In this document: positions 5,739 through 59,583 of the stretch, in pieces
Position numbering within the stretch: the stretch's first letter is position 1
Layout: the number at the start of each line of letters is the position of its first letter
From: Candidatus Methanophagales archaeon
GTDB lineage: Archaea; Halobacteriota; Syntropharchaeia; Alkanophagales; Methanospirareceae
Direction: 5' to 3'
Assembly (NCBI GenBank): GCA_024699715.1
Contig: JANPRD010000011.1
Span: 62,001 to 126,000 of the forward strand
Length of the DNA stretch: 64,000 nucleotides
Translations under genes and position numbers: made by a program
The notes under the pieces: generated by a model
What the model saw: the letters and a program-made list of their open reading frames with translations, nothing else
Databases searched by the model: none
What the model was told of the DNA's origin: nothing

Positions 5739-6893
5739 ATGAAGCGTGAAGAGGTGGGAGAAGTGGAAAGGGCAGAGAACGAGAAGCAGCTCGTAGAGTT
5801 TCCGGATGAACATAAGGAGCGTCTTCTGATGTCAGGTGTGGATTTGAGCGGTAAGGAGCGTTCAGGCTCTTTCATTCAGAAAGACACTCAAATTTTACTC
5901 GCTCTCGCAAGACATGCGGGCTTGGAGGTCATGCCGATTGCGGAAGCGCTTGAAACTCACGAATGGCTCGCTGAATACTTCTGGAAGGCAGTTCCTGCGG
6001 ATGCGGATGCTTACACGAAGGCAACTCACAGGGAGAAAGAGGTGAAAGGTGTGTTTGTGCGTGCAAAAAGGGGCGTTAAAATACCTTTTCCCGTGCAAGC
6101 TTGCTTCTTCATCGCCTCTGAACACACCGCTCAAAAGGTTCATAACATTATTATTGCGGAAGAAGATGCGGAATTGCACCTTATTACGGGATGTGCCACA
6201 CCTGAAAAGTTCGGAAGTGCCGTTCACATAGGCGTTTCAGAATTTTATGTGGGTAAAAATGCGAAAATGTCTTTCGCTATGATTCATAATTGGTCAAGTG
6301 ATGTCGGAGTTAGACCGAGAAGCGCTGCAATTGTTGAAGAAAATGGCACTTTTATCAGCAATTATGTGTGCATGGAGCCCGCTAAGAGCATTCAGATGTA
6401 TCCCTCCGCCCTCCTCGTAGGTGAGAATGCCCTCGCCACATTCCAGTCTATATTGTATGGCAGGGGGAACGCAAAAATAGATGTGGGTTCAAAAGCGGTT
6501 CTCGCAGCGAAAGGCTCTCGTGCTGAAATCATATCAAGGGCGGTCGCAACCGAAAACGCTGAAATAACAGCGAGGGGCGAGATTGTCGGCAATTCCGCAG
6601 GCGTTAAAGGGCATCTTGAGTGCAGAGGGCTTCTCCTCTCCTCTTCAGCGAAGATTCATGCAATTCCCGCACTGCGAGCTTCGCACAGCGATGTTGAGCT
6701 TTCGCACGAGGCTGCCGTCGGTAAAATTGCGGAAGAAGAAGTCAGATACCTGATGGCTCGTGGATTAAGCGAGGAAGAGGCTACTTCTTTCATCATTCGT
6801 GGCTTCTTGAGCATTGACATAAAAGGTCTGCCTCCAAAACTCGCATCACAAGTGCAAAGAATGGTGCAATTGAGTGCCGAAAAACTGCTTTAA
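5739..6893 (+). CDS. sufB: SufB/SufD-family Fe-S cluster scaffold
   Basis: The 384-residue protein is a SufB/SufD beta-helix scaffold. It contains PFPVQACFFIASEHTAQKVHN and ends with the conserved SHEAAVGKIAEEEVRYLMARGLSEEEA followed by IIRGF. Together with SufC it makes the minimal SufBC system common in anaerobic archaea, where one SufB-like protein forms the scaffold without a separate SufD. It follows sufC by 39 bases on the same strand, so they are almost certainly one operon. Nearness to a sulfide-type thi4 suggests sulfur assimilation directly from sulfide; that link is inference. Confidence 0.93.
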   Translation: MKREEVGEVERAENEKQLVEFPDEHKERLLMSGVDLSGKERSGSFIQKDTQILLALARHAGLEVMPIAEALETHEWLAEYFWKAVPADADAYTKATHREKEVKGVFVRAKRGVKIPFPVQACFFIASEHTAQKVHNIIIAEEDAELHLITGCATPEKFGSAVHIGVSEFYVGKNAKMSFAMIHNWSSDVGVRPRSAAIVEENGTFISNYVCMEPAKSIQMYPSALLVGENALATFQSILYGRGNAKIDVGSKAVLAAKGSRAEIISRAVATENAEITARGEIVGNSAGVKGHLECRGLLLSSSAKIHAIPALRASHSDVELSHEAAVGKIAEEEVRYLMARGLSEEEATSFIIRGFLSIDIKGLPPKLASQVQRMVQLSAEKLL

Positions 6894-6962
6894 CGCAGCC
6901 ACTCCGTTCTTCATAGAGATCACCGCAAGGAGACCACCGAGACGGGTGGAGGATGGGTAGCC

Positions 6963-6970
6963 TTTAAATA
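6963..6970 (+). promoter_or_regulatory. TATA box for the structured RNA candidate
   Basis: TTTAAATA at 6963-6970 matches an archaeal TATA box. It lies 25-30 bases before the first nested stem (6997), the usual TATA-to-start spacing in archaea. No open reading frame on the + strand follows, so it most likely drives a non-coding transcript. Confidence 0.45.
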
Positions 6971-6991
6971 CTTTATTGCTAATAATACTAA

Positions 6992-7135
6992 GCTGAGCTG
7001 GAAGGTTTCCGGTGATGAGGCTCTCAAGGCTGGATGGCTCTGAGGCGAAGTCCTCAGGGTCATGGGCTGCGTAAACCAGCCATTGCCGGAGCTCCAGCCG
7101 TGATGAAGGCATAAAGCCACCCATGGGTGGTAGTT
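6992..7135 (+). ncRNA. Candidate structured non-coding RNA of unknown class
   Basis: The 312 bases between sufB and the K+ channel gene hold no credible protein gene but contain a nested set of perfect complementary segments. GCTGGA (6997-7002) pairs with TCCAGC (7093-7098). Inside it TCCGG (7008-7012) pairs with CCGGA (7086-7090), then GGCTGG (7028-7033) with CCAGCC (7076-7081), and innermost CTGAGG (7040-7045) with CCTCAG (7052-7057). Downstream is a hairpin CCACCCATGGGTGG near 7118-7131. A TATA box sits at the right distance upstream. I could not match it to SRP RNA, RNase P RNA, 5S rRNA or a complete C/D box RNA. Class and function are unknown. Confidence 0.45.
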
Positions 7136-7205
7136 TACTCTTCCAAAGTAAGCAAGTGAAGGTGTGTAGGCAAGTGAAATGTGTGCGACGCTGAACGCAA
7201 AGCGA

Positions 7206-8207
7206 TTAGAAGAATTCAAGCTCTTCAAGCCTTTTCAGCGCCTTTTTGCTGCCGATGAAGACGACGGTGTCTCCTGCTTTAATTTCCTCTTCAGGCGAGA
7301 TGTTTGAGATGATTTTTCCGCCTCTGATTATTGCGATGACCATCGCTCCCGTTCGCTCACGCAGTCGCAAGTCCTTCATTTTCTTTCCCGCAATCTTCAT
7401 GTGAGGCTCAACTGTGAGGCTCTCAAGTGAAGTCTCGCCGACGCCTGCGGTCACGAAATCAACAAAATCTAAAATTGCGGGCTTTAGCAGGCTCTTTGCA
7501 AGTCTTCTGCCGCCGATGGCTTCAACCATCACGACCCTGTTCGCACCGATGCTTCGGAGACGCTTTGCAGCCTCTTCGGAGCTTGCCCTTGTTGCAATCT
7601 CAATGCGTGGGTTCAAGTCCCTTGCGGAGATGCACAGCAGTATGTTATCGCAATCTGAAGGTAGCGTGGAAACAAGCCCAGAAGCACGCTCAACGCCCGC
7701 CTCTCGCAGCACTTCGTCCTTCGTTGCATCGCCTTCAACGACAGGAATCCCTCTGCGACGCAAATCCGCAACGATGCGAGAATTCCGCTCAATCACGACA
7801 AATTCAACCCCTTCTCGCAGAAACTCCTCTATTACAACCTTTCCTGTGCGACCCGCACCGCATATAATCTTGTGATTCTTCATTTTTGAGATGCTCTTCT
7901 TCGCTCTCACGATGCCGAATGCCTCGCTGAGGCGACCTTCAAACATCATCTCTACTATTGCGGTCAGTGCATAAAGTCCGACGCCGACACCTGAAATCAT
8001 GAGAGCGGTTGCGAATATTCTGCCTGCATATGTTTCTGGATGCACATCTCCATATCCTACGGTCGTGAGCGTCGCAACTGTCAAATACAACGCCTTCAGA
8101 GGTTCAAGTCCCTCAAAGTAAGAGAAGCCTGCAACGCCCGCCACAGCGAGCGCCGAAAGTGCTGAAAATGCGAGCAGTGCATGCCTCAAAGGCTCCATTT
8201 CCTTCAA
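7206..8207 (-). CDS. Two-TM potassium channel with RCK (TrkA-N/TrkA-C) domains
   Basis: The 333-residue protein starts with a hydrophobic helix, a pore region carrying the K+ selectivity filter TTVGYGD (near residue 45), and a second helix. This is the MthK/Kch-like two-transmembrane channel layout. A cytoplasmic TrkA-N domain follows (KIICGAGRTGKVVIEEF, near 113), and a TrkA-C domain forms the C-terminus (VIAIIRGGKIISNISPEEEIKAGD). It probably forms a ligand-gated K+ channel in the cytoplasmic membrane. Its start codon overlaps the stop codon of the moaD-like gene by four bases, so the genes are translationally coupled even though the functions look unrelated. Confidence 0.92.
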   Translation of the reverse strand: MKEMEPLRHALLAFSALSALAVAGVAGFSYFEGLEPLKALYLTVATLTTVGYGDVHPETYAGRIFATALMISGVGVGLYALTAIVEMMFEGRLSEAFGIVRAKKSISKMKNHKIICGAGRTGKVVIEEFLREGVEFVVIERNSRIVADLRRRGIPVVEGDATKDEVLREAGVERASGLVSTLPSDCDNILLCISARDLNPRIEIATRASSEEAAKRLRSIGANRVVMVEAIGGRRLAKSLLKPAILDFVDFVTAGVGETSLESLTVEPHMKIAGKKMKDLRLRERTGAMVIAIIRGGKIISNISPEEEIKAGDTVVFIGSKKALKRLEELEFF

Positions 8208-27446: not shown

Positions 27447-27998
27447 GCCTCCTACATCCCTCTACAAAAAGAAATTGCGACCCCTGTCTTTCTCCTTTTC
27501 CATTTTTGCTTTTCGTCAAGACCTCATGATTTCTGTCTGCTTACTGAATTCTCATCGTGATGGGCTAAAATATTCTTATGTGCAATGGTATGCCTTCGCC
27601 CCTCATTTTTAAATATGTAAAAGAAGTTGTTGCTTTCTGAAGTCAGCGATTGGCTTGCCACTTAGCATAAGAAAGAGATTCTGCGATGCGCAAAAGCAAT
27701 CGGAACACTCCCAGAGAAAGTCATTTTCATCTTTTGTGGCACAGGTGCTAAAGACGAATGGCGTGCGTGAGCAGCGTTGCAGAACGACACCATTTACAAT
27801 CACTTAATTTCCTTTTGTATATATTTAAATATCCAGTATGCAAAGCAGGTGAAATGGGGATAAGGGGGGAAGGTATGGCGCCGTCGTGTCGTGCGGTGGC
27901 AGTTTCAATAGTAGAGACGCTTTTCAACAGAATGGACATAAAAGCTCAAAAACGACAGGAATTTATACTCATGTTGTGATGAAAGATTTAAGGAAGAT
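27447..27998 (+). repeat. Cassette flank repeat R1, copy 1 (non-coding)
   Basis: About 550 bases with no credible gene begin 12 bases upstream of the nrdG start. Most of it recurs at 30800-31196: the stretch from GCCTCCTACATCCCTCTAC to ATATTCTTATGTG, and the stretch from GTGGCACAGGTGCTAAAG to AAAGATTTAAGGAAGA. Copy 1 has about 150 extra bases (27583-27733) missing from copy 2. A TATA-like TGTATATATTTAAAT lies near 27815. Between copies, small indels change the frame of any ORF read through it (TGCGGTGGC against TGCTGGTGGC), so it behaves as non-coding leader. Confidence 0.85.
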
Positions 27999-28033
27999 TA
28001 AAAGTCCATTGGATTTAATGGGAGGTGGGAAGG

Positions 28034-28168
28034 ATGAATAAGTTCGTATATCCTTCCAAATTGGAACAAAATGTGATTATATATAAGTTAAGTGAAATGC
28101 CCGATGCACCAAGATTAGGAATAGAGGGTGAAAATAATGGGATTGCTGGAATTCCTAAACGAAAATAG
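28034..28168 (+). CDS. Possible 44-residue small protein at the head of cassette 1
   Basis: An ATG at 28034 is preceded by GGAGGT seven bases upstream, the strongest ribosome site in the cassette. The frame runs 44 codons (MNKFVYPSKLEQN... to GIAGIPKRK) to a TAG at 28166. It overlaps the start of the membrane-protein gene by 32 bases. No family is recognised. It may be a leader peptide, or the site may belong to a gene remnant. It has no counterpart in cassette 2. Confidence 0.35.
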   Translation: MNKFVYPSKLEQNVIIYKLSEMPDAPRLGIEGENNGIAGIPKRK

Positions 28169-28875
28169 GGGAGATTTTGCTGTAATATTTTCAGCAGTTG
28201 TAGCCATTGCTATTATAGTATATGCCATTTTGACAGGGAAACTGGAATTATTTTCAGCAGTTGTAGCCTTTGCAACTGTAGTGTATGCTACTTTAACGTA
28301 TATATTGGTCTCAGAAACTAAAAAAATGAGAGAGGCACAAACAGAACCAAAAGTTTCTGTAACTATTCAACCAAGAGAAGAATGGATAAATCTCATAGAT
28401 ATGGTCATACAAAACATAGGGTTAGGACCGGCCTACAATATAAAATTTGAGATTAACCCAGATTTTGAATATATGAAAGGTAAATTCCTATCTGAGTTGG
28501 GTTTTATGAAAAATGGTCTAAAATACCTTGCTCCTAACCAAAAACTACAATTTTTTTTTAACAAGCATGATTGAGAATTTTGAAGAAAAAACAAAAAAGC
28601 CTTTTGAAATTAAGGTTACTTATCAAAATAGCATAGGTAAAACATACAAGGATGTATATATGATTGATTTTTCTCAGCTAATTGGTTTAAGCCAATTGGG
28701 TGAACCACCTCTATACAAAATAGCTAAAAATGTAGAAGAAATCAAAAAAGATATTCACCATCTTTCTACTGGGTTAATAAAAGTAATTAGATATACAAAG
28801 GAAGATATAGAGGAAGAAGAAACAAAACAATTGTTAGAACGATCTAAGCAACCGAAAAAGGAGGATGAGGTATAA
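28137..28875 (+). pseudogene. Two-TM membrane-anchored hypothetical protein, frameshifted at a poly-T tract
   Basis: The first frame encodes two membrane helices (VIFSAVVAIAIIVYAIL and FSAVVAFATVVYATLTYIL) and a soluble part, up to APNQKLQFFF. It stops shortly after T9 at 28551-28559. The second frame carries on with LTSMIENFEEKTKKPFEIKVTY, GKTYKDVYMIDFS and a Lys/Glu-rich end at 28875. Removing one T gives QFFLTSMIENFEE and one protein of about 245 residues, a known widespread but uncharacterised layout. The start is ATG 28137. The gene is clearly more AT-rich than flanking housekeeping genes. Frameshift could be an indel error in the homopolymer. Confidence 0.75.
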
Positions 28876-28876
28876 T

Positions 28877-29000
28877 GCTGTTGTGCATCGGGCACTCTGC
28901 GGTGCTTCGCACCTTGCCCCTATCAGGGGCACTTAACAGGAGTGGCTCGCTAATGCTCGCCCAAATTTCGCAAGGCGAAACTTCACATATCCCCAGAACG
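28877..29000. repeat. Palindrome-rich element after cassette gene
   Basis: Short inverted repeats follow the cargo gene: GGTGCTTCGCACC, GCCCCTATCAGGGGC and TTTCGCAAGGCGAAA. The segment CCCAAATTTCGCAAGGCGAAACTTCACATATCCCC also occurs, with one visible change, after the methyltransferase gene (41549-41580). No open frame here looks real. It may be a terminator cluster or a recombination site. Confidence 0.6.
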
Positions 29001-29100
29001 TTAAGTGAAAGAATTTTTTTAGGATGTGCAAAATTATATATACGAGAATTAGGATGTGATGGGATTGCGAGTTTGCTAAAGCAGGAGAGAGGTGAAAACG

Positions 29101-30399
29101 ATGATTGAAGTAATCCTGTTGATAGTAGGAATAGTGATAGGTTTTATTGCAGGATTTTTCCTTGGTAAAGTAAAAGCATATCAATCCGCGGATATATCGG
29201 CACAGATGTCTGTAATGAATAATTTGTCCACTCAAATTGCCGAGATGAAAGTAAAATTTGAAGAAGTAGAAAAAGCAAGACGTGAAATTGAAAAGCAGAG
29301 AGAAAAGTTTGATGAAGAACGAGAGAAAAGATTCAGAGAATTTGTAAATAATGTTCATAAACTATTTGAAGAGTTGACTGAAAAGACGACAAAACTTGAT
29401 GAAGAAAAGGATAAACGGATTGAGGAATTGATGGAGCATATGAAAAAATTCTTTGAAGAATTTGATGAGGAACGGGATAAAAGATTTAGAGAATTCGTAG
29501 ATAATATTCATAGATTATTTAAAGAGCTGAGTGAAAAGACGACAAAACTTGACGAAGAAAAAGATAAACGGATTAAGGAATTAATGGAGCAAATGAAAAA
29601 ATTCTTTGAAGAACAGAAAAGACATACTGAGCAGTTTTTGTTAGAGCAGGGAAAATCACGAGAAGAAATCGAGAAAAGGCGAGATGCTCAGATAGAGGAT
29701 ATGAAAAGAATGATTTCTATGTTCACAAAGGCAATATCTGGAACAAAAACTCGAGGATTGACCGGAGAAATACTATTAAGAGAGGCATTAAAGGAATCTA
29801 TAAAAGTTGGTTTAATAAAGTGCAATTTAAAAACAGATAATGGAGAGGTTGAATTTGCTTGGGATTTGGGAGATGGGAAATATATACCCATTGATTCAAA
29901 AATGCCTGATGTTTTTGAAATTCTACAAAAATACAATACAACTAATGATACTAAAGAGCAAGAAAATTACAAAAAGATAATAATAGATAAAATAAGGAAA
30001 GAAATAAAAAGGGTTCAAAAATATCAGAATCTATCAAACACTACAGATAGCTGTATTTTAGTTGTGCCAGAAGGTATTTTAGATATTGCACCTGAATTGA
30101 TAAGTATGGGGGAACAGAACAATGTGTTTATTTGTAGCTATAAAGATGTGTTTCTCATAGCACACACGCTTCAGGATCAATATATCCGTTTAAAAGAAGA
30201 AGGTGATGTTGGAAAATATAAACAAATAATTAAGTCTCTATTTCAAATTCTCGATAACATCAACAAAAAAACAGAATCTATTGAAAAAGCATTGACTACA
30301 ATTCGTAACGCAAATGAAAAAATAAAAATAGAAGTGATTAAAGGAAAGAGAGCGGAGGAATATGTATCTGAAGAAGACGTGGAGGAGATCTATGGATAG
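29101..30399 (+). CDS. rmuC: RmuC-like nuclease-domain protein with coiled coil
   Basis: An N-terminal membrane helix (VILLIVGIVIGFIAGFFLG) is followed by a long coiled coil (residues about 30-200) and the RmuC domain. The latter contains GLTGEILLREALK near 218 and IPIDSKMPDVFEIL near 263, the latter with the D-x-K of the PD-(D/E)XK-like fold. RmuC limits recombination at inverted repeats in bacteria; its role in archaea is unknown. The coil contains a 51-residue tandem repeat (DEEREKRFREFV... and DEERDKRFREFV...). ATG 29101 is chosen with GAGGTG upstream, over GTG 29092. The gene is AT-rich and sits in cassette 1. Confidence 0.85.
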   Translation: MIEVILLIVGIVIGFIAGFFLGKVKAYQSADISAQMSVMNNLSTQIAEMKVKFEEVEKARREIEKQREKFDEEREKRFREFVNNVHKLFEELTEKTTKLDEEKDKRIEELMEHMKKFFEEFDEERDKRFREFVDNIHRLFKELSEKTTKLDEEKDKRIKELMEQMKKFFEEQKRHTEQFLLEQGKSREEIEKRRDAQIEDMKRMISMFTKAISGTKTRGLTGEILLREALKESIKVGLIKCNLKTDNGEVEFAWDLGDGKYIPIDSKMPDVFEILQKYNTTNDTKEQENYKKIIIDKIRKEIKRVQKYQNLSNTTDSCILVVPEGILDIAPELISMGEQNNVFICSYKDVFLIAHTLQDQYIRLKEEGDVGKYKQIIKSLFQILDNINKKTESIEKALTTIRNANEKIKIEVIKGKRAEEYVSEEDVEEIYG

Positions 30400-30524
30400 G
30401 GGTGGCAAACTCGCAACTCTTCGTTTCACATCGGGGCTCACGCCCTCGCTTAACAGGCGGGTATCTGGTAATAAGAAATGAATTAAATGTTAAGAAAGAA
30501 GCAAAATCGCCCGTCGCCCGCAAC

Positions 30525-30800
30525 TCTCCGCTACGGTGCTTTCGCACGCTGAAAACAAGTGGGCGGTACGCTCACTCAAACCCTCACGGGCTTCGCATAC
30601 CCGCCAGACGGATATACACCCATTAATAGGAAAAATACCTTGTTGTTGCGGATTTAACCAAAATATAGAGAAGGTTTTATATACACGGACAATATTATAT
30701 GGACATAACTGGAGGATTATATTCGTATAAGTAGAAGAGGTGCAGTTATTCTTTGTGGGAATATTCCCAAAGTTTATAAATAATTAAACAATTTTAAATG
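30525..30800 (+). repeat. Cassette flank repeat R2, copy 1
   Basis: The stretch from CTCTCCGCT and TTTCGCACGCTGAAAACAAG, through CACGGGCTTCGCATACCCGC and GACGGATATACACCCATTAA, to AAACAATTTTAAATG recurs at 31813-32098. It includes a perfect palindrome TGGGAATATTCCCA (30758-30771) and TATA-like TTTATAAATAATTAAAC. The last 17 bases duplicate the end of nrdD (codons for TFKIV and stop). The preceding interval 30400-30524 has related palindromic sequence and no gene. Confidence 0.85.
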
Positions 30801-31196
30801 CCTCCTACATCCCTCTACAAAAAGAATTTGCGACCCCAGTCTTTCTCCCTTTCCATTTTTGCTTTTCGTCAAGACCTCCTGATTTCTGTCTGCTTACTGA
30901 ATTCTCATCGTGATGGGCTAAAATATTCTTATGTGTATTTCCGTTGTGGCACAGGTGCTAAAGACGAATGGCGTGCGTGAGCAGCGTTGCAGAACGACAC
31001 TTAATTTCCTTTTGTATATATTTAAATTCCAGTATGCAAAGCAGGTGAAATGGGGATAAGGAGGGAAGGTATGACGCCGTCGTGTCATGCTGGTGGCAGT
31101 TTCAATAGTAGAGACGCTTTTCAACAGAATGGACATAAAAGCTCAAAAACGACAGGAATTTCTACCCATATTGGGATGAAAGATTTAAGGAAGAAC
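30800..31196 (+). repeat. Cassette flank repeat R1, copy 2
   Basis: This is the second copy of R1, joined directly to the end of R2 copy 1 (AATTTTAAATG then CCTCCTACATCCC). The R2/R1 junction shows that the cassettes are tandem duplicates with different cargo. It lacks the 150-base insert of copy 1 and ends just before the next cargo gene. Confidence 0.85.
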
Positions 31197-31213
31197 TGTA
31201 GAGGTGTGTGTAA

Positions 31214-31702
31214 ATGGATAAGAAGAGCATCAAAACATTAATTGAAGAGGCATTGAAGGAATTGATTAGAAGAGATAAAGGTTTAATTCATCGTAAAGTA
31301 AGAGAGGAATGCATTAACCATAGATTGGCGTGTTATTTGGAACAGTTTTTGAGTGAATATAAATGTGAGATTAAGTATAGTGTAGATTTAGAATACAACA
31401 AAAATTATAATGATCCTAAAAGGATACAAATTGACGATAAAAATAAAAATACAAAAGCTATCAGACCGGACATAATAATTCATAAAAGAGAAACCAATGA
31501 CAATAATTTAATTGCTTTTGAAATAAAGAAAAATTACACAGACAGACATGACTTAGAAAAGATAAGAGGATTATTTAGAAGCCCATATAATTATAAGTAT
31601 GGATGCTTAATATCTTACTTACCTGAAAAAGAGTACATCAAAGTCAAATTACTGTCTAACCAAGGCGATGTGGAGGAATTCAGGGTCAATAAAAATAAAT
31701 AG
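31214..31702 (+). CDS. Putative PD-(D/E)XK nuclease-like protein (cassette 2 cargo)
   Basis: This AT-rich 162-residue protein contains IRPDIIIHKR (PD near residue 84) and LIAFEIKKN (E-x-K at about 102-104). That is the spacing of a PD-(D/E)XK nuclease core. It opens with a helical segment (KTLIEEALKELIRRDKG) and INHRLACYLEQFL. The family is not one I can name. The ATG at 31214 follows GAGGTG by seven bases. It is the only gene between R1 copy 2 and R2 copy 2. A role in defence or element mobility is inference from the fold and the context. Confidence 0.6.
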   Translation: MDKKSIKTLIEEALKELIRRDKGLIHRKVREECINHRLACYLEQFLSEYKCEIKYSVDLEYNKNYNDPKRIQIDDKNKNTKAIRPDIIIHKRETNDNNLIAFEIKKNYTDRHDLEKIRGLFRSPYNYKYGCLISYLPEKEYIKVKLLSNQGDVEEFRVNKNK

Positions 31703-31812
31703 GGCGGTGCCAGCGTATTTATGCATATAGCTCATGGAGTTATCTTAAGGGTAGAAATTAAAGATTAGAAATAAGGAGGTATGATGCTAATAAAAATAAC
31801 CCTCCGTCCACG

Positions 31813-32098
31813 ACTCTCCGCTTGCTGTCGCTCGCTTCGGTGCTTTCGCAAGCTGAAAACAAGAGGGCAGGGCGCTCACTCAAACCCTCACGGGCTTCGC
31901 ATACCCGCCAGACGGATATACACCCATTAAAAAATACCTTGTTGTTGCGGATTTAACAAAAATATAGAGGGAGTTTTATATACACGGACAATATTATATG
32001 GATAAAACCGGAGGGTTATATTCGTATAAGTAGAAGAGGTGCAGTTATTCTTTGTGGGAATATCCCAAAGTTTATAAATAATTAAACAATTTTAAATG
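31813..32098 (+). repeat. Cassette flank repeat R2, copy 2
   Basis: Second copy of R2 with small differences from copy 1 (TGGGAATATCCCA for TGGGAATATTCCCA). It ends inside the nrdD coding region, so its last 17 bases are the true nrdD 3' end. The region 31703-31812 between the cargo gene and R2 contains no gene that I can support. Confidence 0.85.
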
Positions 32099-43609: not shown

Positions 43610-44772
43610 TCACTGAAGTGAGCCAGCAAGAGGAGGTTCCTGCTTCGTTGAGGCGACTTGCCCCACGATCACCGAAGAAGCGGTGACGTGGAGTAGAGGT
43701 CTCCTCTCAGCAGGCTCAAAGGGCAGGCCCAGCCCCAGCTTCTCCAATCCTCTTTTCAGTATTCTACATGCAGATGTGTAATCTCGCAGCGGATCGCTCC
43801 GAGATAGACCTTCGGATGTGCCTCTTGGAGAAACCTTCACGACCGTCTTACCAGCTCTCTCAGCCTTGTAAGACAGGTAGTGAAGGAACTTACTCCAAGA
43901 GGCGTCTGAAATTTCGGATGAGAGATTGTGGTTTCTCTTCATGTTTTCCACTTTCAAGGCTTCGACCACGATGAGATCGTAGTTATCAACGTAGAATCGT
44001 GAGAGTTTATGCAGAAAATCATCCCTCTTCCGCTCTATTTTCTCATATACCTTGCACAACCTTCGCAGCTGCTTCAGCCAGTTCTTCGAGCGTCTCTTCT
44101 TCCTCGAAAGTTTGCGGTGCTCTATTCTCAAACGCTCCAAGTCTCGCTCATAGCACTTCGGATTCTCTATGGCTCTTCCATCAGAGTCTGTGAGATAGCT
44201 TCTTATGCCTAAGTCTATGCCTATTGCACGCTCTATCTCCTTCTTCGGAACTTCAGCATCTTCGACGCATATAAGAGCGATACCACGCTCCGCTTCCATA
44301 GCGCTTTATGATCACTTGCTTTATCTTTCCTTCAACGGGGCGGTGAATTCTTATTGGAACTTCTCCGACCTTTGATATGTATAACCTATCCAACCTATTC
44401 CCTGTCTTGATGAGCTTGAAGCCTGACTGGTTCAGAATGAAGCTCTTGAACTTTCCGTATTTCTTATATCGCAGCTTTCCGACCTTCTTACCCTTCTTCT
44501 TCAGTTCCGCCAAAGCCTTCAGGTTGTTATAAAGCATGAAAACGACCATTTGCAAGGTCTTAGCGTTCACTTCTCTTCAGTTCAGATCGTTCTTCCTTTA
44601 GCTTTGGGAGCAAGGATTGCATCTTGCGTTTTGGTGGTGTGCTCTTACTCTCGTTTATGATTGAAAGCAGCTTGTTATAGACCCACCTGCACTGTTCTAA
44701 TATGAGCAGCAATTTCTCCTCTTGCTCCTTCGTAGGATATAATCTGAACTTTTGAGCGATAGATAGTCATTT
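43610..44772 (-). pseudogene. tnpB: Decayed IS605/IS1341-type transposon gene tnpB
   Basis: Pieces of one TnpB lie in successive frames. The N-terminal part AQKFRLYPTKEQEEKLLLIL (44770-44575) is followed by NAKTLQMVVFMLYNNLKALAELKKKGKK (44570-44280) and then by AIGIDLGIRSYLTDSDG with IVVEALKVENMKRNH (RuvC D and E). Three frame changes are needed, near 44755, 44575 and 44285. The C-terminus RGTSEGLSRSDPLRDYTSACRIL has the RuvC Asp region but no CxxC pairs, so it is a zinc-finger-less variant. ATG 44772 follows GGTGAA. A hairpin CTCACTGAAGTGAG (43609-43622) at the gene end looks like the right end. No tnpA is present. Confidence 0.85.
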
Positions 44773-48500: not shown

Positions 48501-51500
48501 TTACGCCTCGCCGCTGAGTGCAGAGCGCAAGGCATTTTTCCACACCAAATTCTCAATCCTTTCAATTAGAGAACGCCTGTTTCCCACATATTCCGCTATT
48601 TTCTTGCGAACTGCCTCACGAGTTTTGAGATAAGATTGCACTGCTCGCCTCACCGCATCCTTATCCTTCGGAATTTTGATGCGCCTGCGACCACTTTTAA
48701 CCGCAATTTCTATGTATTTCGCCTCCTCTCTCGTCTCACATCTCAACTTCAGCGTGCGAAAATTCACGAATATGCCTTCAAGCGAGGATTCCAACGAAGG
48801 CTCTCCCTCCTCCTCCGGAATATAAATCTCTTCGCACTCCTCCCCCTCAATATACCCCTCAGGAAATCTTAATTCACCACCGAACTCCCGCAAGACATCC
48901 GCAGCAATCTCCTCCACAGCCACATCTCCTTTCCTACCTCGCCTCTCAACACTCCTCGCTTTCTCTAACCTTGAACGCACTAAATCAACCACCGCTCTGT
49001 AAACCTCCAACTGCTCCTCCTCGCTTAATCCCAAAATCTCTCCCATCACAATGCGGTCAAGTTCTCTGCGGTCTGGTTTTACTTTGTCTAAGGAAACTTC
49101 TTCTGGCGTGTTTGCTCCTATTTCTTCGAAAACTGAGTCGATTGGACGTTTAGATAAATTGTCAAAGGCTTTCTCAAGTTTTTTGATTTGAGATTTAGAG
49201 AATCACATCAGGATTAATAATCGGAACGTGGTTTCATCTCAGGTCCATAATTTATCAAAAGCCCCTTGTCCCATTACAGTTCTCCCATATAATTCAACAA
49301 TCATGGTTATAAATTGTCGAATTTAACAGTGCAGCTATCACTTTAGAGAGTTTCTTGTCTTTTAGGCACAAATACCATAAAAAGTATGATCTGTCGGACT
49401 ATCAGTCATTTTAAATGGCAAGTTAATAGGTCACATTCAAACAATTGTCTAAATACAAATATCAGCTTGTGGCAACTCTGGCAAATCATACCATCTCTTC
49501 CTCGAAGCGCAGGTAGGTCTTTTGTGAAACTCTCTCGGTTTTCTTCACCCCACTCAATATATTTCAGCACATTTGTTCCCCTCAAATCCTCCTTATCTTT
49601 ATGAATGAGAAGCACTCTGAACTTTAAATCTTTCGGGTTTATGACGATTGACTTGCATTCTCTCGGCGATTTTATCACATAATTCGGAATCCAATATACA
49701 AATCCATCGTTCCGTAAGACTTCTTCAAGCGAGAAATCTTCAGCGTATTGCGAATTTTTGAAGTATTCACCGCCTTTGTCCTTCCAGACATCTTCAGCAA
49801 CAGGAGGCTCTTCCCACTTACGCAAAGGATGCATCCAAAATTCCCGCTCTATCCCCCACGCCTTTATCTGCTCCTCCGTTAGGTAGAAGAACTCGTTCGC
49901 TCCCGTTGTAAATCCTCTTCGGACTTCTGCGACTGCTTTAAGCGGAACAAACAAATCCTTTCCCTTCTCTAAAATCTTGAAGAATATTGAAGGCGCTCTC
50001 AGGTATTTTCCCCATTTTGAACCCACATATTTTTCAGCGTCGGCGTCAAAGCCTTCTTCCCAGAGTTTCCGCTGCTCAACGACGAAAATACGCATGCTTT
50101 CGTTTTCCTCGTAAGATGTGCAACGCTCTATTTGAGAGGCAAGCATCTCCGCATTCTTCCAATGCCTCGCCTCGCTCTCACCCTCCCTAACGCTCACTCG
50201 CAGGAATTCACGCAGAGGCTTCTTCAACTGCACAAACCTCACGAAATTCCGCATCCTTTCTTCAGAGGAACTGCACTTCTCAAGCACTGTTATGCATGTA
50301 TTCACATCCGCTGCTGAAAACCATCGCTCTACTTTGCTCTCTATTATCGCAATAATCTTGAAGTTTTTGAGCAGGAATTCCTGAATATACCTGCCGTAAT
50401 CAACATCTAACCAAGAGTTTGAAGTGATAAGAGCCATTCTTCCCCCTTCTTTGAGGAATTTTGCGCCGTGAATGAAGAAATAACCGTAAATGCTCATTCG
50501 CTTTCCCGCATCAATTCCCGCCTCTTCTCTCGCAATTTTCCTCAATCTCTCCTTGTAGCCTTTCGGGAATATGTCTTCTATTTCTTCCTGACGGGTGTAG
50601 GGCGGGTTCGTGATGACAACATCAAAAAGTTCTGCGGAAGCGGAAGGAGGAAGGACATTGAAAAAGTCATCGTGCTGAATGTCTGCGTTGAACGCTGCGA
50701 AGACATTTTTAATTGCGAGGTTCATTTTCGTCAAATAACAAGCAAATTCTGAGATGTCTATACCTTTCAATTCATGCAAAATCTCCTCGTGCCTCTTTTT
50801 ACCTTTCAGGCGTTTCAGTGCGTAAGCCCTCGTCAAGAAAGTTCCCGCACCACACGCAGGGTCCAAGATGCGTTCATTTCCGCTCTTAACGCAGAAACAG
50901 AGCATAAAATCAACGACAGATGAGGGAGTGAAGTATTGACCGAATTTATGCCTTTCCTCGTCTGGAATCAAATTCTCAAAAATAGAGCCGAGAACATCGT
51001 ATTCTATTTTTGAGAGGTCGTAGCGTTCAATCTCACGCACAAACTCACCGAATTGCTCCGAAAAATCCTTATCTGCGGGAAAAGGCAAATCATCCAAGAA
51101 CTCTCGCTTGAAAATTCCGACGGGACAACGCTCAAAATACTCATTCAAAACGGACAGAATGGAAGAGCCTGCGGGTATTTGAATCTCTGGCAATTTGAAT
51201 CCCTTGGCGACGCTCCTTAAGAAGTTGTAAAAGAGGAGTTTCGCAACGAGAATTAAAATGCAAAGGCGTGCAACCCTGTCAAAATCCGCCTCATTTCCAT
51301 GAAAAACCCATTTCTGCTCCCTGAACCAAGCACGCAAACGCTCCTTGAATGCAGCATCCTTCTCTGCGAGGCGCTGAAGATGCTCAGAAAGCGGAATGTA
51401 GAATGTGTTCACTGCTGATTTGAGACGCTCAATGAACATGCGGTCAAGTGGAAGCGCAGGTAAGCGCCGCCTCTCGTATATCTCGTGGAACTCACGCAGA

Positions 51501-51991
51501 AAACGCCTCAGAAAATCCTTTATTTTCGCTTGAACATCGTTCCTTCGCACCTCTGCCATCCGTTTCACTGAAACGACATCTCTGTGCAGGCGACGACGCT
51601 CAAGCAGTGGCGTCCCCTCTTTGAAAGTCTCCCAGAGGACGAACTCACGCACATTCCAAGTAGCAAAGAACGGAGCGCCGAGCAGAGAAGCCTTGCGCAT
51701 CGCATTCTCGGTGAGTGAAAGCGAGTAACCGTTGAACGAGGGACGCTTCAACTCCAAAATACACGCTGGCTTCCTGACAACTGCGCCTCCTGCGCCTCCT
51801 GCGCCCTCTGCACCCTTTGCGCCCTCACGCTTTTTGAAAATCACGATGTCTGCTTTCAGTGGTGCTGCTCCTTCGCCTGTCCGAATGGGAAATTCCTGCT
51901 CAAATTCAAAAGGTAAGCCTTCCTCTGACGCTATTTCACTCAACCACCGCAGCACAAAGCCCTGAAATTGCGGCTCAATGACGCTATTCAT
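48501..51991 (-). pseudogene. Type IIG-like restriction-modification gene, copy A (broken)
   Basis: The 861-residue N-terminal part (51991-49406) has a PD-(D/E)XK-type site (LKADIVIFKK and ACILELKRP), SAM motif ILDPACGAGTFLTRAY and NPPY motif VVITNPPYTRQEEIED for N6-adenine methylation. A target-recognition region (49500-49060) follows, and the C-terminal part (48501-49200: LDRIVMGEILGLSEEEQLEVYRA) is open again. Frame is lost near 49540, where copy B keeps it, and several stops follow. It would cut and methylate DNA when intact. Here the recognition and tail parts cannot be read in one frame. An Ala/Gly tract lies at 51783-51832. It lies eight bases downstream of trpS copy A. Confidence 0.88.
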
Positions 51992-51999
51992 CTTTCATA

Positions 52000-53394
52000 T
52001 TACAAATAACTCAACCATCTCCTACCAAAATCATATTCTTTCAGCACTTCTTTCGCATTTTCCCGCTCTTCTTGATGCCTCTTCAAGAATTTCTGCATCA
52101 ATTCAGCGGCGAGTTCCTTGCAAGAGCGGCAAATTCTTCGCCCCGTTTTGCATTCTTCGTAGATTTCTCGCACAAAAGCGTCATCCTCAATCAAATGCGT
52201 GAGCAGGAGCTCGTAAACTGCGCATTTCTCAGGTTCGCCTCCGAGACGGCGCTGCTCCTCTGCTGTTGCTCTTCCGCCTGTCAGAGCGTTCTTCACCTTG
52301 CGAGCAGCCTCTTCAGGCGGTTCTGTTAGCGAAATGACACTTTGAGGGTTGCTTGACGACATTTTTCCACCTGTTAAGCCACGCATGAACTTGTGGTAAG
52401 TGGAAGCAGGGAGAAAAAAACCGTAGCCTCCTCTGCTGACCTCAACTTCTCGCACAATTCGCTCAACTTCCCTCACTTTCTCTTCAAAATTCTCATCATC
52501 GTCAAACCAAACATCCAAATGCATCTCATACAAGCGTGTCTTCTTTGCTGAATCTAAGCGAGCAAGGACATCATTCAACGCACTTCTGTCCGCTTTTTTC
52601 AAGCGGATGCTCACATAATTTTCGCCATCAAAGCGACGACGCTCAACTGTGAACATGCGAAGACGAGATGCGACATCCCTCGTCAGACGAATGTGCGGGT
52701 CTTGGTCCGCTCCGACAGGCACGACCGTCGGTTTAGGACCGCCGAAGTCCTTGTGTTGAGGCTGCAGTATGTCTGCGATTTGGACGAGGACGCTGAACAT
52801 GTGCGAGATTTTGACATCAGAGCGGAAGCCGTAAATTGCACTCATCTCGCTGAAATTCACTTCTGTTCCCGCCTCAACTGCGAGGTCTTGCACCCGCTTG
52901 TTCTCAGATTGGAAGTATAAGAAGCCACGATTGATGTCAAAACCGAGAGCGATAAGGCTTAAAATGTATTCACCGACGCCTAAACGCTTGCATTTCTCCC
53001 ACGAAATTCCTCTAACTGAGTGAGATTCAATGTCTGCGATGCAAGAGAATGCGTAAGCACCACGCTTCTGATGCCATATTATCTCGTCCATGACCATTTT
53101 ATTCCCGATATGAACCTTTCCTGAAGGCATGAAACCGCTGATTACTGCGAAATCATCGCCATTTCGCATCGCTTCTAACACTTCTTCGTAGCCACGATGA
53201 CCGAAAATGATGCCTCTTCGCATGTATAAATGCGGATTCTCTATTTTAGAGCGGATTTCTGCGAATGGAGAGATGCCGAATTCTTTGAGGAGGCGCTCGT
53301 AGTCCTCAATCGCTGCGACACTCCAAGGGTCTAACTTCTCACGCCCCCCGCTTCTTTCGTTCAAAACCCTCTCACCTCTCCTCGCCCTACTCAC
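52000..53394 (-). CDS. trpS: Tryptophanyl-tRNA synthetase, copy A
   Basis: The 464-residue class I synthetase has GFMPSGKVHIGNKMVMDEI (HIGH-type motif) and GGKMSSSNPQSVI (KMSKS-type motif) near residue 340. DQDPHIRLTRDVA and YHKFMRGL are typical of archaeal/eukaryotic TrpRS. It charges tRNA-Trp. The ATG overlaps the purS stop by eight bases. The copy at 59584-60978 differs at only a few residues that I could see (for example SLIAL/SLLAL, KEVLKE/KELLKE, KRHQ/KMHQ). Having two near-identical trpS genes is unusual. Confidence 0.95.
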   Translation of the reverse strand: MSRARRGERVLNERSGGREKLDPWSVAAIEDYERLLKEFGISPFAEIRSKIENPHLYMRRGIIFGHRGYEEVLEAMRNGDDFAVISGFMPSGKVHIGNKMVMDEIIWHQKRGAYAFSCIADIESHSVRGISWEKCKRLGVGEYILSLIALGFDINRGFLYFQSENKRVQDLAVEAGTEVNFSEMSAIYGFRSDVKISHMFSVLVQIADILQPQHKDFGGPKPTVVPVGADQDPHIRLTRDVASRLRMFTVERRRFDGENYVSIRLKKADRSALNDVLARLDSAKKTRLYEMHLDVWFDDDENFEEKVREVERIVREVEVSRGGYGFFLPASTYHKFMRGLTGGKMSSSNPQSVISLTEPPEEAARKVKNALTGGRATAEEQRRLGGEPEKCAVYELLLTHLIEDDAFVREIYEECKTGRRICRSCKELAAELMQKFLKRHQEERENAKEVLKEYDFGRRWLSYL

Positions 53395-53647
53395 GAGCCT
53401 GCTGCCCTCTGATTTTTATTTCATATTCTTGAATTACGGGGTTTGCGAGCAGTTTCTTGCACATTTCCTCCGCCTCTCGCAGAGCATCTTCCTCGGATGC
53501 ACCGTTCAACGAGACTAAAAAGACTTTCTCGGTTCTCACGCTTCGCACATTGAATCCGAGCAGGTTCAGAGCCTTCTTCGTGTTCTCGCCTTCAGGGTCT
53601 GCAACGCCTCGCTTCAGGCGAACCCGCACCTCCACCTCAAACAACAT
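53387..53647 (-). CDS. purS: PurS subunit of phosphoribosylformylglycinamidine synthase, copy A
   Basis: The 86-residue protein matches PurS, with FEVEVRVRLKRGVADPEGENT at the start and KKLLANPVIQEYEIKI at the end. It is the small linker subunit of the FGAM synthase complex with PurL and PurQ, neither of which is in the window. The start MLFEVEVRV (53647) is preferred, because residues before it in the longer frame are read through non-coding sequence near RNase P RNA. Its stop overlaps the trpS start. Confidence 0.88.
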   Translation of the reverse strand: MLFEVEVRVRLKRGVADPEGENTKKALNLLGFNVRSVRTEKVFLVSLNGASEEDALREAEEMCKKLLANPVIQEYEIKIRGQQARE

Positions 53648-53705
53648 CCACAGAAATTGGAGTGAGGATGTGAAAAGCATGGGGAAGAAAAAAGAAAAGA
53701 GAAAG

Positions 53706-53996
53706 GGAGGGGGGAGTGATGGTAGTAAGCCCCCTTCTGTTTCAGGCGGCATTCATCTCGGCGCCAAAAGGCTTGCACCCACGGGGACGGTCGTTCCATC
53801 CGAGACCTTGCGACCTCATCCTTTCGGAATCATCGCACACGCAAGGCTCGGTATCGTTTCTGCGCCGTTGCCAGGGCTCTCGCCCTGTGCCTTTCGGCAC
53901 CCGTGCTTTTGCGGTGGGGGGACTTTCCTCAGCTCCTCTTCACGCCCCTGCGGGCGCTCGGAGGAACCGGCAGCCGCCCTCCATCTCTCCCCCTCC
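53706..53996 (-). ncRNA. rnpB: RNase P RNA, copy A
   Basis: Read on the minus strand, the sequence has the universal CR-I GAGGAAAGUCC (53920-53930) and CR-V ACAGAAGGGGGCUUAC (near 53725-53740). P1 is formed by GGAGGGGG and GAUGG at the 5' end with CCAUC and CCCCCCUCC at the 3' end. Internal hairpins GUGCCGAAAGGCAC and AGGGCGAGAGCCCU are also as expected. It is about 291 bases, type A-like archaeal RNase P RNA. It processes the 5' leaders of pre-tRNAs with archaeal protein subunits. It lies between purS and ftsZ. Confidence 0.93.
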
Positions 53997-54077
53997 TTCA
54001 ATAATTGAGCGAAAATTAATTTCCTTTTCGCCTCTTCCCGCTCCGCACACGCTCCTTGCGTGCTTGCTCTGCGCCGC

Positions 54078-55202
54078 TCAGCGGTAGAAAGGAATTATAT
54101 CTGTGAGGCGCTCGCGGTCTCCTCTTCTGCTCATGTCTCTAACCAAGCCACCTCTACTACCACTGCTTCTTGAGAATTCTTCCTGCTCCTCGTATCTGCC
54201 GCCGAAAATCCATTTAGGCTCGACGCCCGTCATAATTGCGACGACTTTCACCTTGCCGTCGTATTCCTTTTTTATGCGTGCGCCCCAAATCACATTCGCA
54301 TCAGGGCTTAACTCGTAAGTTAGCAGCTCAACAATGTCGTTTGTTTCCTTCATCGTGAGGTCAGTCCCGCCTGTAATGTGAATGAGCGCACCTTTCGCAC
54401 CTCTGTAGTCCGCCTCAAGCAGCGGATGGTTCAACGCCTCCTCAACAACCGCCTCTGGCTTGTTCTCCGTCTTTGAGGTCTGACCGACGAGCATGACTGC
54501 GACGCCCCCTTCTTCCATCACCGCCTTCAAGTCCGCAAAGTCAATATTAACGAGGGAAGGCTGCGTGATTGTCTCTGAAATGCCCTGAATTGTCGTCGCT
54601 ATCAGCATATCCATCGTCTTGAACGCATCATTAACGGGCAAATTCGGCGCATACTTTATCAATTTGTCGTTCTCAAGCACAATAACCGTGTCTGTTACCC
54701 TGCTCAATTCCCTTATTCCTTCAATCGCCTTCTTTCTGCGTATGCGTTCAGCCTCAAAAGGAAAAGAAACCATCGCAACAACGATTGCACCCATCTCTTT
54801 CGCAATCTCAGCGACAACAGGAGACGCACCTGTGCCTGTTCCTCCGCCCATTCCCGCAGTCAAGAAGACAAAATGCTTGTCACGAAGCACTTCCTCCAAT
54901 TTCTCCCTGTCAAGTTCCGCAGCCTTCCTACCTATCTCGGGAGAGCCTCCCGTTCCGAGACCATGAGTGAGCGACTTACCAATCAACACCTTCTTCTCGC
55001 ACCGTATTGAGTCAAGATGCAATTTGTCCGTGTTTATCGCCACTCGCTCTATGTTCCCAAGACCGCCGAGCTGCTCAAGCCTGTCCATTGAATTGTTCCC
55101 CGCTCCGCCCACGCCTACAACCATTATCCTCGGAACGCCAAATAACTCCTCTTCCCCCTCCTCTCTACTCTCAAATATTTGCTCCGCCATTTGCTCCGCC
55201 AT
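54078..55202 (-). CDS. ftsZ: Cell division protein FtsZ, copy A
   Basis: The protein has the tubulin/FtsZ GTP-binding motif [21 protein letters not shown]-terminal [22 protein letters not shown], and NVIWGARI for the T7 loop side. It forms the cytokinetic ring. ATG 55202 is chosen because GGAGGGAG lies upstream. A TATA-like ATATTAATAT (about 55262-55272) would start transcription downstream of the earlier ATG at 55250 (390 residues). It differs from copy B by one residue that I could see (IRELS against IKELS). The two copies are not the FtsZ1/FtsZ2 pair common in archaea. Confidence 0.95.
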
Positions 55203-55403
55203 TTCTCCCTCCCTTCTCCTTCCATTCAGGCTTTCGGTATTCCTCCTCATGAAATAAACCCTATATTAATATTGCGGAGCATCTTCATTTTTATTAAGCA
55301 AGACGAGAGGTCTTAAACAAGAAAGCACTGACGCCTCACACCGCCCCTCCGCACATGCGACACACGCCCAATGGCTCTGCGCTCCCGCTTGCCGACGACC
55401 TGC

Positions 55404-56060
55404 TCAAAGTGCCGCCTCAAAGTCCTCAATCTTGTATTCAAACGAGAATTCCTCCTCTTTACCTTCTCGCTTCATCCGCTCACGCAGCGTCTCCCTTGCG
55501 AGCAGCCAGTAAACGGTGGCGAGTGAGCGCCTGCCCTTGTTGTTCGCAGGAATCACAAGGTCAACATTTGAAACGGAGTTGTTCGTGTCGCAGAGTGCAA
55601 CGATGGGGATGCCGAGCGAGGAAGCCTCTCGCAGCGCTTGGTGGTCGCTCATCGGGTCTGTAAGAAGAACAACAGAAGGCTCAACAAAATGCTCACTCTG
55701 CGGGTTCGTGAGCGTCCCTGGGATGAATCTGCCGACGATTGCCTTTGCACCTGTGACCTTTGCGAACATGCTCACCGGCTTCTGACCGTATTCCCTCGTT
55801 GAGACCGCAAGAATCTCGTCAGGTTGGAAGCGTGAGAGAAATTTCGCAGCAATCCGCAGTCGCTCATCAATCTTGCGAATGTCCAGCAGATAGAGACCGT
55901 CAGGTCGCACTTGGTAAATGAATCTTTTCATGTATGATGTCCTCTGCTGCGTCCCGATGTGAACGCCTCTTGTCAAATACTCCGTGTGCGGAATGAGCAA
56001 TGCCGTCTCTTCCCACTCCTTTCCCCGCTCTGCACCTGTCCCAGCCTCCGCCGCAGACAT
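55404..56060 (-). CDS. rps2: Small ribosomal subunit protein uS2, copy A
   Basis: The 218-residue protein has [45 protein letters not shown] and [24 protein letters not shown], as archaeal/eukaryotic uS2 (S2P/SA). It is part of the small ribosomal subunit. In most archaea rps2 follows enolase; here its upstream neighbour in copy A is the duplication joint. I see no residue difference from copy B. It reads toward ftsZ. Confidence 0.94.
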
Positions 56061-56130
56061 GATTCTTCACCGCCGAGATGTTCTCAGACCGTGCCTTCAG
56101 TCCAGCACGGAACCCCCGAAGAGCTCCGCC

Positions 56131-59100
56131 CTAAAGGCGTCTCCAACTTACTTTTCTCCACACTAAATTCTCAATCCTTTCAATTAGAGAACGCCTGTTT
56201 CCCACATATTCCGCTATTTTCTTGCGAACTGCCTCACGAGTTTTGAGATAAGATTGCACTGCTCGCCTCACCGCATCCTTATCCTTCGGAATTTTTATGC
56301 GCCTGCGACCACTTTTAACCGCAATTTCTATGTATTTCGCCTCCTCTCTCGTCTCACATCTCAACTTCAGCGTGCGAAACTTCACGAATATGCCTTCAAG
56401 CGAGGATTCCAACGAAGGCTCTCCCTCCTCCTTCGGAATATAAATCTCTTCGCACTCCTCCCCCTCAATATACCCCTCAGGAAATCTTAATTCACCACCG
56501 AACTCCCGCAAGACATCCGCAGCAATCTCCTCCACAGCCACATCTCCTTTCCTACCTCGCCTCTCAACACTCCTCGCTTTCTCTAACCTTGAACGCACTA
56601 AATCAACCACCGCTCTGTAAACTTCTAACTGCTCCTCCTCGCTTAATCCCAAAATCTCTCCCATCACAATGCGGTCAAGTCTCTCGGCGGTCTTCTTTCA
56701 CTTTCTCTAACGAAACTTCCTCTGGCGTGTCCGCTCCGAGCTCTTCAAAAATTTCTGAATTCGTCTTCCGACACAACTCTTTTAATGTTTCTGAAATCTC
56801 CTTCTCTTCTTAACGACAGTTCTATTCAACGGAATGCCAAGCTTTTCCAACCAATATACATTTGTATATACAGCATCCCTCCCCTAAATTCGTAAATACC
56901 ATCAATCTCTATGAGGAGTGGAATTAATGAACTATGCAAATAACCCTCTACTTCAAGCACATTCTTTGTGTATATATAGAAAAATCTTTGATCAGCCCAT
57001 GTTTTTCTCGTATTAAAAACTGCAAATCGTGTATTGTATGCATCAGACCATATTAAATCAGGTTTTTCCCATTTTCCCAAGTCATACCAACGCTCTCTCG
57101 CTCTGCAAGTAGGTCTTTTGTGAAACTCTCTCGGCTTTTCTTCGCCCCACTCAATATATTTCAGCACATTTGTTCCCCTCAAATCCTCCTTATCTTTATG
57201 AATAAGAAGCACTCTGAACTTTAAATCCTTCGGGTTTATGACGATTGACTTGCATTCTCTCGGCGATTTTATCACATAATTCGGAATCCAATATACAAAA
57301 CCATCGTTCCGTAAGACTTCTTCAAGCGAGAAATCTTCAGCGTATTGCGAATTTTTGAAGTATTCACCGCCTTTGTCCTTCCAGACATCTTCAGCAACAG
57401 GAGGCTCTTCCCACTTACGCAAAGGATGCATCCAAAATTCCCGCTCTATTCCCCACGCTTTTATCTGCTCTTCCGTGAGGTAGAAGAACTCGTTCGCTCC
57501 CGTTGTAAATCCTCTTCGGACTTCTGCGACTGCTTTAAGCGGAACAAACAAATCCTTTCCTTTCTCTAAAATCTTGAAGAATATTGAAGGCGCTCTCAAG
57601 TATTTTCCCCATTTTGAACCCACATATTTTTCAGCGTCGGCGTCAAAGCCTTCTTCCCAGAGTTTCCGCTGCTCAACGACGAAAATACGCATGCTTTCGT
57701 TTTCCTCGTAAGATGTGCAACGCTCTATTTGAGAGGCAAGCATCTCCGCATTCTTCCAATGCCTCGCCTCGCTCTCACCCTCCCTAACGCTCACTCGCAG
57801 GAATTCACGCAGAGGCTTCTTCAACTGCACAAACCTCACGAAATTCCGCATCCTTTCTTCAGAGGAACTGCACTTCTCAAGCACTGTTATGCATGTATTC
57901 ACATCCGCTGCTGAAAACCATCGCTCCACTTTGCTCTCTATTATCGCAATAATCTTGAAGTTTTTGAGCAGGAATTCCTGAATATACCTGCCGTAATCAA
58001 CATCTAACCAAGAGTTTGAAGTGATAAGAGCCATTCTTCCCCCTTCTTTGAGGAATTTTGCGCCGTGAATGAAGAAATAACCGTAAATGCTCATTCGCTT
58101 TCCCGCATCAATTCCCGCCTCTTCTCTCGCAATTTTCCTCAATCTCTCCTTGTAGCCTTTCGGGAATATGTCTTCTATTTCTTCCTGACGGGTGTAAGGC
58201 GGGTTCGTGATGACAACATCAAAAAGTTCTGCGGAAGCGGAAGGAGGAAGGACATTGAAAAAGTCCTCGTGCTGAATGTCTGCGTTGAACGCTGCGAAGA
58301 CATTTTTAATTGCGAGGTTCATTTTCGTCAAATAACAAGCAAATTCTGAGATGTCTACACCCTTTAACTCTTGCAAAATCTCCTCGTGCCTCTTCTTTCC
58401 TTTCAGGCGTTTCAGTGCGTAAGCCCTCGTCAAGAAAGTTCCCGCACCACACGCAGGGTCCAAGATGCGTTCATTTCCGCTCTTAACGCAGAAACAGAGC
58501 ATAAAATCAACAACAGATGAAGGCGTGAAGTATTGACCGAATTTATGCCTTTCCTCGTCTGGAATCAAATTCTCAAAAATAGAGCCGAGAACATCGTATT
58601 CTATTTTTGAGAGGTCGTAGCGTTCAATCTCACGCACAAACTCACTGAATTGCTCAGAAAAATCCTTATCTGCGGGAAAAGGCAAATCATCCAAGAACTC
58701 TCGCTTGAAAATTCCGACGGGACAACGCTCAAAATACTCATTCAAAACAGACAGAATGGAAGAGCCTGCGGGTATTTGAATCTCTGGCAATTTGAATCCT
58801 TTGGCGACGCTCCTTAAGAAGTTGTAAAAGAGGAGTTTCGCAACGAGAATTAAAATGCAAAGCCTTGAAACCCTGTCAAAATCCGCTTCATTTCCATGAA
58901 AAACCCATTTCTGCTCCCTGAACCAAGCACGCAAACGCTCTTTGAATGCTGCATCTCTGCTGCGAGGCGCTGAAGATGCTCAGAAAGCGGAATGTAGAAT
59001 GTGTTCACTGCTGATTTGAGACGCTCAATGAACATGCGGTCAAGCGGAAGCGCAGGTAAGCGCCGCCTCTCATATATTTCATGGAACTCTCGCAAGAAAC

Positions 59101-59575
59101 GCCTGAGAAATTCCTTTATTCTTTCCTGAACATCTCTGCGTCGCACTTCTTCCATCCGTTTCACTGAAACGACATCTCTGTGCAGGCGACGACGCTCAAG
59201 CAGTGGCGTCCCCTCTTTGAAAGTCTCCCAGAGGACGAACTCACGCACATTCCAAGTAGCAAAGAACGGAGCGCCGAGCAGAGAAGCCTTGCGCATCGCA
59301 TTCTCGGTGAGTGAAAGCGAGTAACCGTTGAACGAGGGACGCTTCAACTCCAAAATACACGCTGGCTTCCTGACAACTGCGCCTCCTGCGCCTTCTGCAC
59401 TTTGCGCCTCACGCTTTTTGAAAATCACGATGTCTGCTTTCAGTGGTGCTGCTCCTTCGCCTGTCCGAATGGGAAATTCCTGCTCAAATTCAAAAGGTAA
59501 GCCTTCCTCTGACGCTATTTCACTCAACCACCGCAGCACAAAGCCCTGAAATTGCGGCTCAATGACGCTATTCAT
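56131..59575 (-). pseudogene. Type IIG-like restriction-modification gene, copy B (broken)
   Basis: Copy B has the same parts as copy A, but its breaks differ. The N-terminal 241 codons (59575-58850) are cut from the methyltransferase part (58934-56826) by a one-base loss near 58955, at GCATCTCTGCTGCG where copy A reads GCATCCTTCTCTGCG. At the right end a further shift near 56690 separates the C-terminal part (56667-56131). Past the point where copy A lost its frame (about 57140), copy B reads on through WYDLGKWEKPDLIWSDAYNT. The 3' end is truncated by the duplication joint, ending LVWRKVSWRRL. Confidence 0.86.
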
Positions 59576-59583
59576 CTTTCATA

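Follow-up and report, generated by a model that had tools for sequence, protein, structure and literature searches.

What kind of RNA lies between the convergent SufBD gene (5739-6893, forward strand) and TrkA/ion-channel protein gene (7206-8207, reverse strand) of an ANME-1-related archaeal genome (G000; assembly of 1.49 Mb, about 80% complete)? The window, by which we mean the whole analysed stretch of 64,000 nucleotides (C13:62001-126000 of G000), had been read before from its letters alone, and this sequence-only reading placed here a promoter-linked RNA of nested stems, of no recognised class, standing alone between convergent genes. The genes are indeed convergent, but the RNA is part of a multicopy mobile element and not a lone gene: positions 6915-7138 are very probably (about 0.88) a PATE, a non-autonomous element of the IS200/IS605 type, and its body consists of a TnpB omega-RNA driven by a promoter. 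The evidence for this reading comprises the element boundaries, the TTCAT on the left, the terminal hairpins, the TATA box, the omega-RNA homology and the pseudoknot pairing; and also the several copies at unrelated sites and a sister copy representing a tnpB with an internal deletion.

Anatomy of the element

The features of the locus, all on the forward strand, are as follows.

6910-6914, forward: TTCAT target site immediately left of the element, the presumed transposon-adjacent motif (TAM)
6915-7138, forward: whole element (PATE), 224 bp, bounded after TTCAT and after GTTTAC, with differing flanks outside
6934-6949, forward: left-end hairpin CCACC...GGTGG, read directly
6963-6970, forward: archaeal TATA box TTTAAATA, a putative promoter with a predicted start near 6990-6995
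6992-7138, forward: omega-RNA scaffold of about 147 nt, by covariance-model homology to tnpB 3′ ends
7034-7063, forward: first hairpin, 12 bp (7034-7045 with 7052-7063), with covariation
7065-7081, forward: second hairpin GGCUG/CAGCC (7065-7069 with 7077-7081), whose loop GUAAAC (7071-7076) is a pseudoknot strand
7117-7130, forward: right-end hairpin CCACC-CAUG-GGUGG (7117-7121 with 7126-7130), with covariation
7133-7138, forward: GTTTAC, which ends the element and forms the 3′ strand of the pseudoknot (transposon-encoded motif), exact complement of 7071-7076
7139-7154, forward: predicted 16-nt guide TCTTCCAAAGTAAGCA in the host flank, its putative function by analogy with the ISDra2 reRNA

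The order is thus TTCAT target site, left-end hairpin, TATA box, omega-RNA, right-end hairpin and GTTTAC terminus. Comparison of copies set the boundaries: of seven copies, which occupy different genomic sites, five have TTCAT (background frequency 0.0014 per position) at exactly 14 nt before a conserved GGAG, and two have TACAT and TTTAT there, each one base off; and GTTTAC forms the final conserved bases, beyond which the flanks diverge. The left-end hairpin reads CCACCCATC...GATGGGTGG in the second copy of G000 and CTCCACGC...GCGTGGAG in the copy of G071, and the right-end palindrome resembles the left-end one, as in IS605-type elements. Each end carries a subterminal palindrome, inverted terminal repeats and a target duplication are lacking (TTCAT is absent on the right), and there is no transposase; the element is multicopy and of IS605-type origin (copies at unrelated sites; locus L048, below). 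Such palindromes, together with a short target site that is confined to the left side and not duplicated, are the anatomy of the IS200/IS605 type.

The TATA box lies at the right distance from the RNA, as had been noted, and its octamer is identical in four divergent copies (the window copy, copy 2 of G000, G010_C7 and G071); a TATA box is also found at the equivalent place before tnpB genes of these genomes (including L031 and L019). The earlier view of a structured RNA with an archaeal promoter of its own, which is presumably active, is upheld.

A relative of the SufBD protein is present in Candidatus Methanoxibalbensis ujae, whose genome we take to be G010. Synteny anchored on this gene recovered no homologous spacer there; SufBD precedes another gene, so the empty site cannot be read in that genome.

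The window holds other repeats. Two adjacent 7.6-kb stretches (48535-56150 and 56152-63757) share about 97-98% identity and are either a recent tandem duplication or an assembly artefact; an archaeal RNase P RNA gene lies in each (at 53714-53989 and 61299-61574). Several direct repeats of 136-272 bp (92-97% identity) lie in 27447-32098. A tnpB remnant was found by the PF07282 search at 43799-43897 (G000:C13:105799-105897; E 7e-8); it belongs to another omega-RNA type, with the end GGAGGAGGTCACG.

The RNA fold and its comparative support

All four nested complementary pairs reported between 6997 and 7098 are present: GCTGGA (6997-7002) with TCCAGC (7093-7098), CCGG (7009-7012) with 7086-7089, GGCTGG (7028-7033) with CCAGCC (7076-7081), and CTGAGG (7040-7045) with CCTCAG (7052-7057); so is the further terminal hairpin, CCACC/GGTGG at 7117-7130. 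The fold so drawn missed the pseudoknot, in which the loop GTAAAC (7071-7076), invariant across this omega-RNA family, is exactly complementary to the terminal GTTTAC (7133-7138); and its GGCTGG/CCAGCC pair competes with the second hairpin (7065-7069 with 7077-7081), which carries the pseudoknot strand, the counts giving no preference.

Folding energy is moderately better than that of dinucleotide shuffles for 6963-7135 (z = -2.41; 3/200), with z = -1.99 (8/200) for 6992-7138. The comparative test, a search for compensatory changes as the sequence-only reading had suggested, is stronger: in a MAFFT alignment of six solo copies, nine pairs are changed on both sides, where 3.1 are expected (more than in any of 500 column shuffles), and 92% of cells are paired, compared with 31-47% in slid registers, exceeding every slide. 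With tnpB-linked copies added (nine sequences), 93% of cells are paired and there are 17 double-sided changes compared with 9.4 in shuffles (0/500) and at most five in slid registers; fitting this alignment to the structure biases it in that direction, but the six solo copies, aligned independently with MAFFT, lead to the same conclusion.

Support is uneven among the helices. On these comparisons the first (innermost) hairpin is the best supported: among the solo copies, six of its 12 pairs show double-sided changes, and eight of 12 do so (98% of cells paired) once tnpB-linked copies are included; in the right-end hairpin the fraction is two of five. The outer helix around CCGG has weaker support: three of its pairs are broken in copy 2 of G000, so the fold may be partly decaying, and the outermost GCTGGA/TCCAGC pair is confined to the two G000 copies.

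Identity as a TnpB omega-RNA

Judged by homology, the RNA at 6992-7138 is a TnpB omega-RNA. A covariance model (R1) built from only the six tnpB-less copies matches the 3′ ends of tnpB genes in G010 (L033, E 7.4e-11; L041, E 8.5e-9); and at other tnpB loci in these genomes both loop and terminus are altered yet still complementary (GTGACC/GGTCAC, GTGAAC/GTTCAC in L021, TTGACAC/GTGTCAA and GTCAAC/GTTGAC). PF07282 matches, to tnpB genes or remnants, number 10 and 14 in G000 and G010, respectively. The RNA therefore has a class, namely one without Rfam recognition here: at gathering and permissive thresholds, Rfam gave no relevant match. The earlier exclusion of RNase P, SRP, 5S and C/D RNAs holds (the C/D scores being far below gathering). 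A riboswitch, already thought unlikely, is rejected.

The loop-terminus pseudoknot, the right-end hairpin, a terminus at the right-end boundary and a flank that may serve as guide are shared with the TnpB omega-RNAs or reRNAs of ISDra2 and with the sotRNAs of Halobacterium. By its class, this RNA may bind TnpB and guide cleavage. In contrast to such RNAs, it has no attached tnpB gene (SufBD and the TrkA/channel gene flank the element) and has its own TATA box directly upstream; and it has extra conserved 5′ and 3′ segments, which tnpB-linked copies lack. An adjoining tnpB on the same strand is typical of the canonical omega-RNA layout and dispensable for function. Stand-alone or trans-acting omega-RNA loci lacking an adjacent nuclease gene are known in IscB systems, but there both the nuclease and the RNA are different; and nuclease-less PATEs occur near IS605 elements of Geobacillus.

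Copies, origin and the missing nuclease

There are two copies of the element in G000, six in G010 (Methanoxibalbensis) and one in G071, a third genus. The second G000 copy (G000:C1:27871-28078) is 84% identical over the matched part in a DNA search, and homology among copies spans the left-end hairpin, TATA box, RNA and right-end hairpin, ending after GTTTAC. In G010, identity among the copies on C62, C12 and C67 is 83-92%, and those on C76 and C63 share 99-100% identity with C62 over shorter overlaps; these identities suggest fairly recent movement. Among 394 genomes of the phylum we found no copies outside these three, save a weak match in G366 (E 0.006) in an apparent ABC-transporter gene, which we take as chance. 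Two further candidates were set aside: L003 (G029) has only promoter-like letters in common and does not share the RNA, and L012 (G026) is a short 83% match without flanking structure. A scan of IMG/VR with the RNA core returned zero matches.

The G071 copy (L048) shows how such elements may have originated: it reads TTCAT, left end, TATA box, an ATG start (MQVAKV..), a residual piece of the C-terminal tnpB coding sequence (..NADFNTSATL..), omega-RNA and GTTTAC. An internal deletion can therefore fuse a tnpB promoter to the omega-RNA, and by this comparison the solo family can arise by internal tnpB deletion that keeps the promoter. A tnpB element of G010 (L031) has TTCAT, 14 nt, GGAG, a TATA box and an open tnpB frame with a TNB domain; its pseudoknot is GTCAAC/GTTGAC.

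Since the element has lost its nuclease gene, a TnpB borrowed from elsewhere in the cell is probably needed. We found neither a TnpB with a matching GTTTAC terminus (the model matches the two solo copies only) nor a TnpA in G000, absences that weigh little because that genome is about 80% complete. In G010 the cognate tnpB copies are cut off by contig ends, and an intact partner could therefore not be read there either; two of four (L023 on C25 and L035 on C3) are without the pseudoknot hairpin loop, keeping the right end.

A second family with the same layout

A second, unrelated omega-RNA family in relatives has the same layout of promoter and omega-RNA, which makes an accidental pattern less likely. 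In G037 it has at least five tnpB-less copies (L066, L067, L069, L070 and L071), three of which (L067, L069 and L070) read left end, A/T-rich TATA-like stretch and right end, in the order of the window element. In two genomes of different genera, the omega-RNA of this family is divergent from an intact tnpB, just upstream of it on the opposite strand: G000:C10:5477-5697 (L064, L076) and G011:C1 (L075), where tnpB occupies 1770-2933 on the reverse strand and the omega-RNA lies near 2981 on the forward strand. Its pseudoknot is CTGACC/GGTCAG, and there is no omega-RNA at the 3′ end of that tnpB. The TnpB of these loci has a TNB domain and visible D/E/D motifs, and is 78% identical between the two genera; left-end sequence at the tnpB 3′ end in G011 indicates that the element encloses this gene, which is antisense to the omega-RNA.

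Proposed working and alternative explanations

In the ISDra2 reRNA, the last ~16 nt derive from flanking DNA (PMC8612924). By analogy with that system, transcription from the TATA box would begin at about 6992, pass through the omega-RNA and continue into the flank; the RNA would then end in a guide copied from 7139-7154, and TTCAT would serve as the TAM (PMC8612924). A TnpB supplied by an autonomous relative may bind this RNA; once TnpA acting in trans had excised the element, TnpB would cut the empty donor joint, where TTCAT is joined to the guide sequence (TTCAT-TCTTCCAAAG), and repair from the sister chromosome would restore the element. Through this cycle of cutting and repair, as we propose it, the RNA would keep the mini-element in place without coding any protein. 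We suggest, tentatively and at somewhat less than even odds, that these PATEs are selfish elements consisting of a guide RNA only, in which a promoter-driven omega-RNA is under selection and a TnpB made elsewhere prevents loss.

The element may instead be a dead relic, its omega-RNA kept only since TnpA needs the right end as a DNA hairpin, with promoter and RNA irrelevant. IS605 deletion derivatives (PATEs) are common in archaea and may retain termini only (PMC3119063), and both the failure of the G000 search to find a partner TnpB and the three broken pairs in copy 2 would fit; yet the first hairpin covaries though far from the right end, the TATA box is retained in four divergent copies, and the second family also keeps a TATA box with its omega-RNA. 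We consider a relic unlikely.

Far less probable is domestication by the host as a trans-acting guide RNA, in which the flank-derived guide would steer TnpB (or a relative with a dead nuclease) to a target in the host or in a virus. TnpB-derived RNA-guided regulators (TldR) exist (PMC13418256), and the site in the window holds a single copy, but the only exact match of TCTTCCAAAGTAAGCA in G000 is its own locus (the next best has two mismatches, and near-matches are fewer than for a reversed control), the guide has zero matches in IMG/VR, and the element is multicopy with guides that differ between copies. It is scarcely credible that the RNA is a guide sRNA, whether of the C/D box or another kind, or that it represents a new and unrelated class: two GATGA motifs are conserved in solo copies and Rfam gives weak matches to sR14 and sR30, but these score 14.7 and 10, where gathering requires 38, the set of C, D, C′ and D′ boxes is lacking, CTGA lies within a covarying stem and is not conserved (it is changed in G010_C7), and the homology to tnpB 3′ ends contradicts such an identity.

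Relation to known elements and significance

PATEs and omega-RNAs are each already known; the parts are familiar and their packaging is unusual. Like the PATEs of Haloquadratum, the window element has IS605-like near-terminal palindromes, no inverted terminal repeats, target duplication or transposase gene, and an origin by core deletion (PMC3119063); it differs in holding a full unit of promoter and omega-RNA, which is not described there, in a paper that predates omega-RNA. In the literature searched, whose coverage is incomplete and makes this a weak statement, we found no PATE with a promoter-driven omega-RNA body.

The guide-RNA-only layout occurs in two unrelated omega-RNA families of ANME-1-related archaea. 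If these omega-RNAs act in trans, non-coding elements would use an RNA-guided nuclease to secure their own retention, and guide and nuclease would evolve as separate units, a step also taken by CRISPR systems. Other structured RNAs of unknown class that have a promoter and lie between archaeal genes may likewise be omega-RNAs outside the coverage of Rfam.
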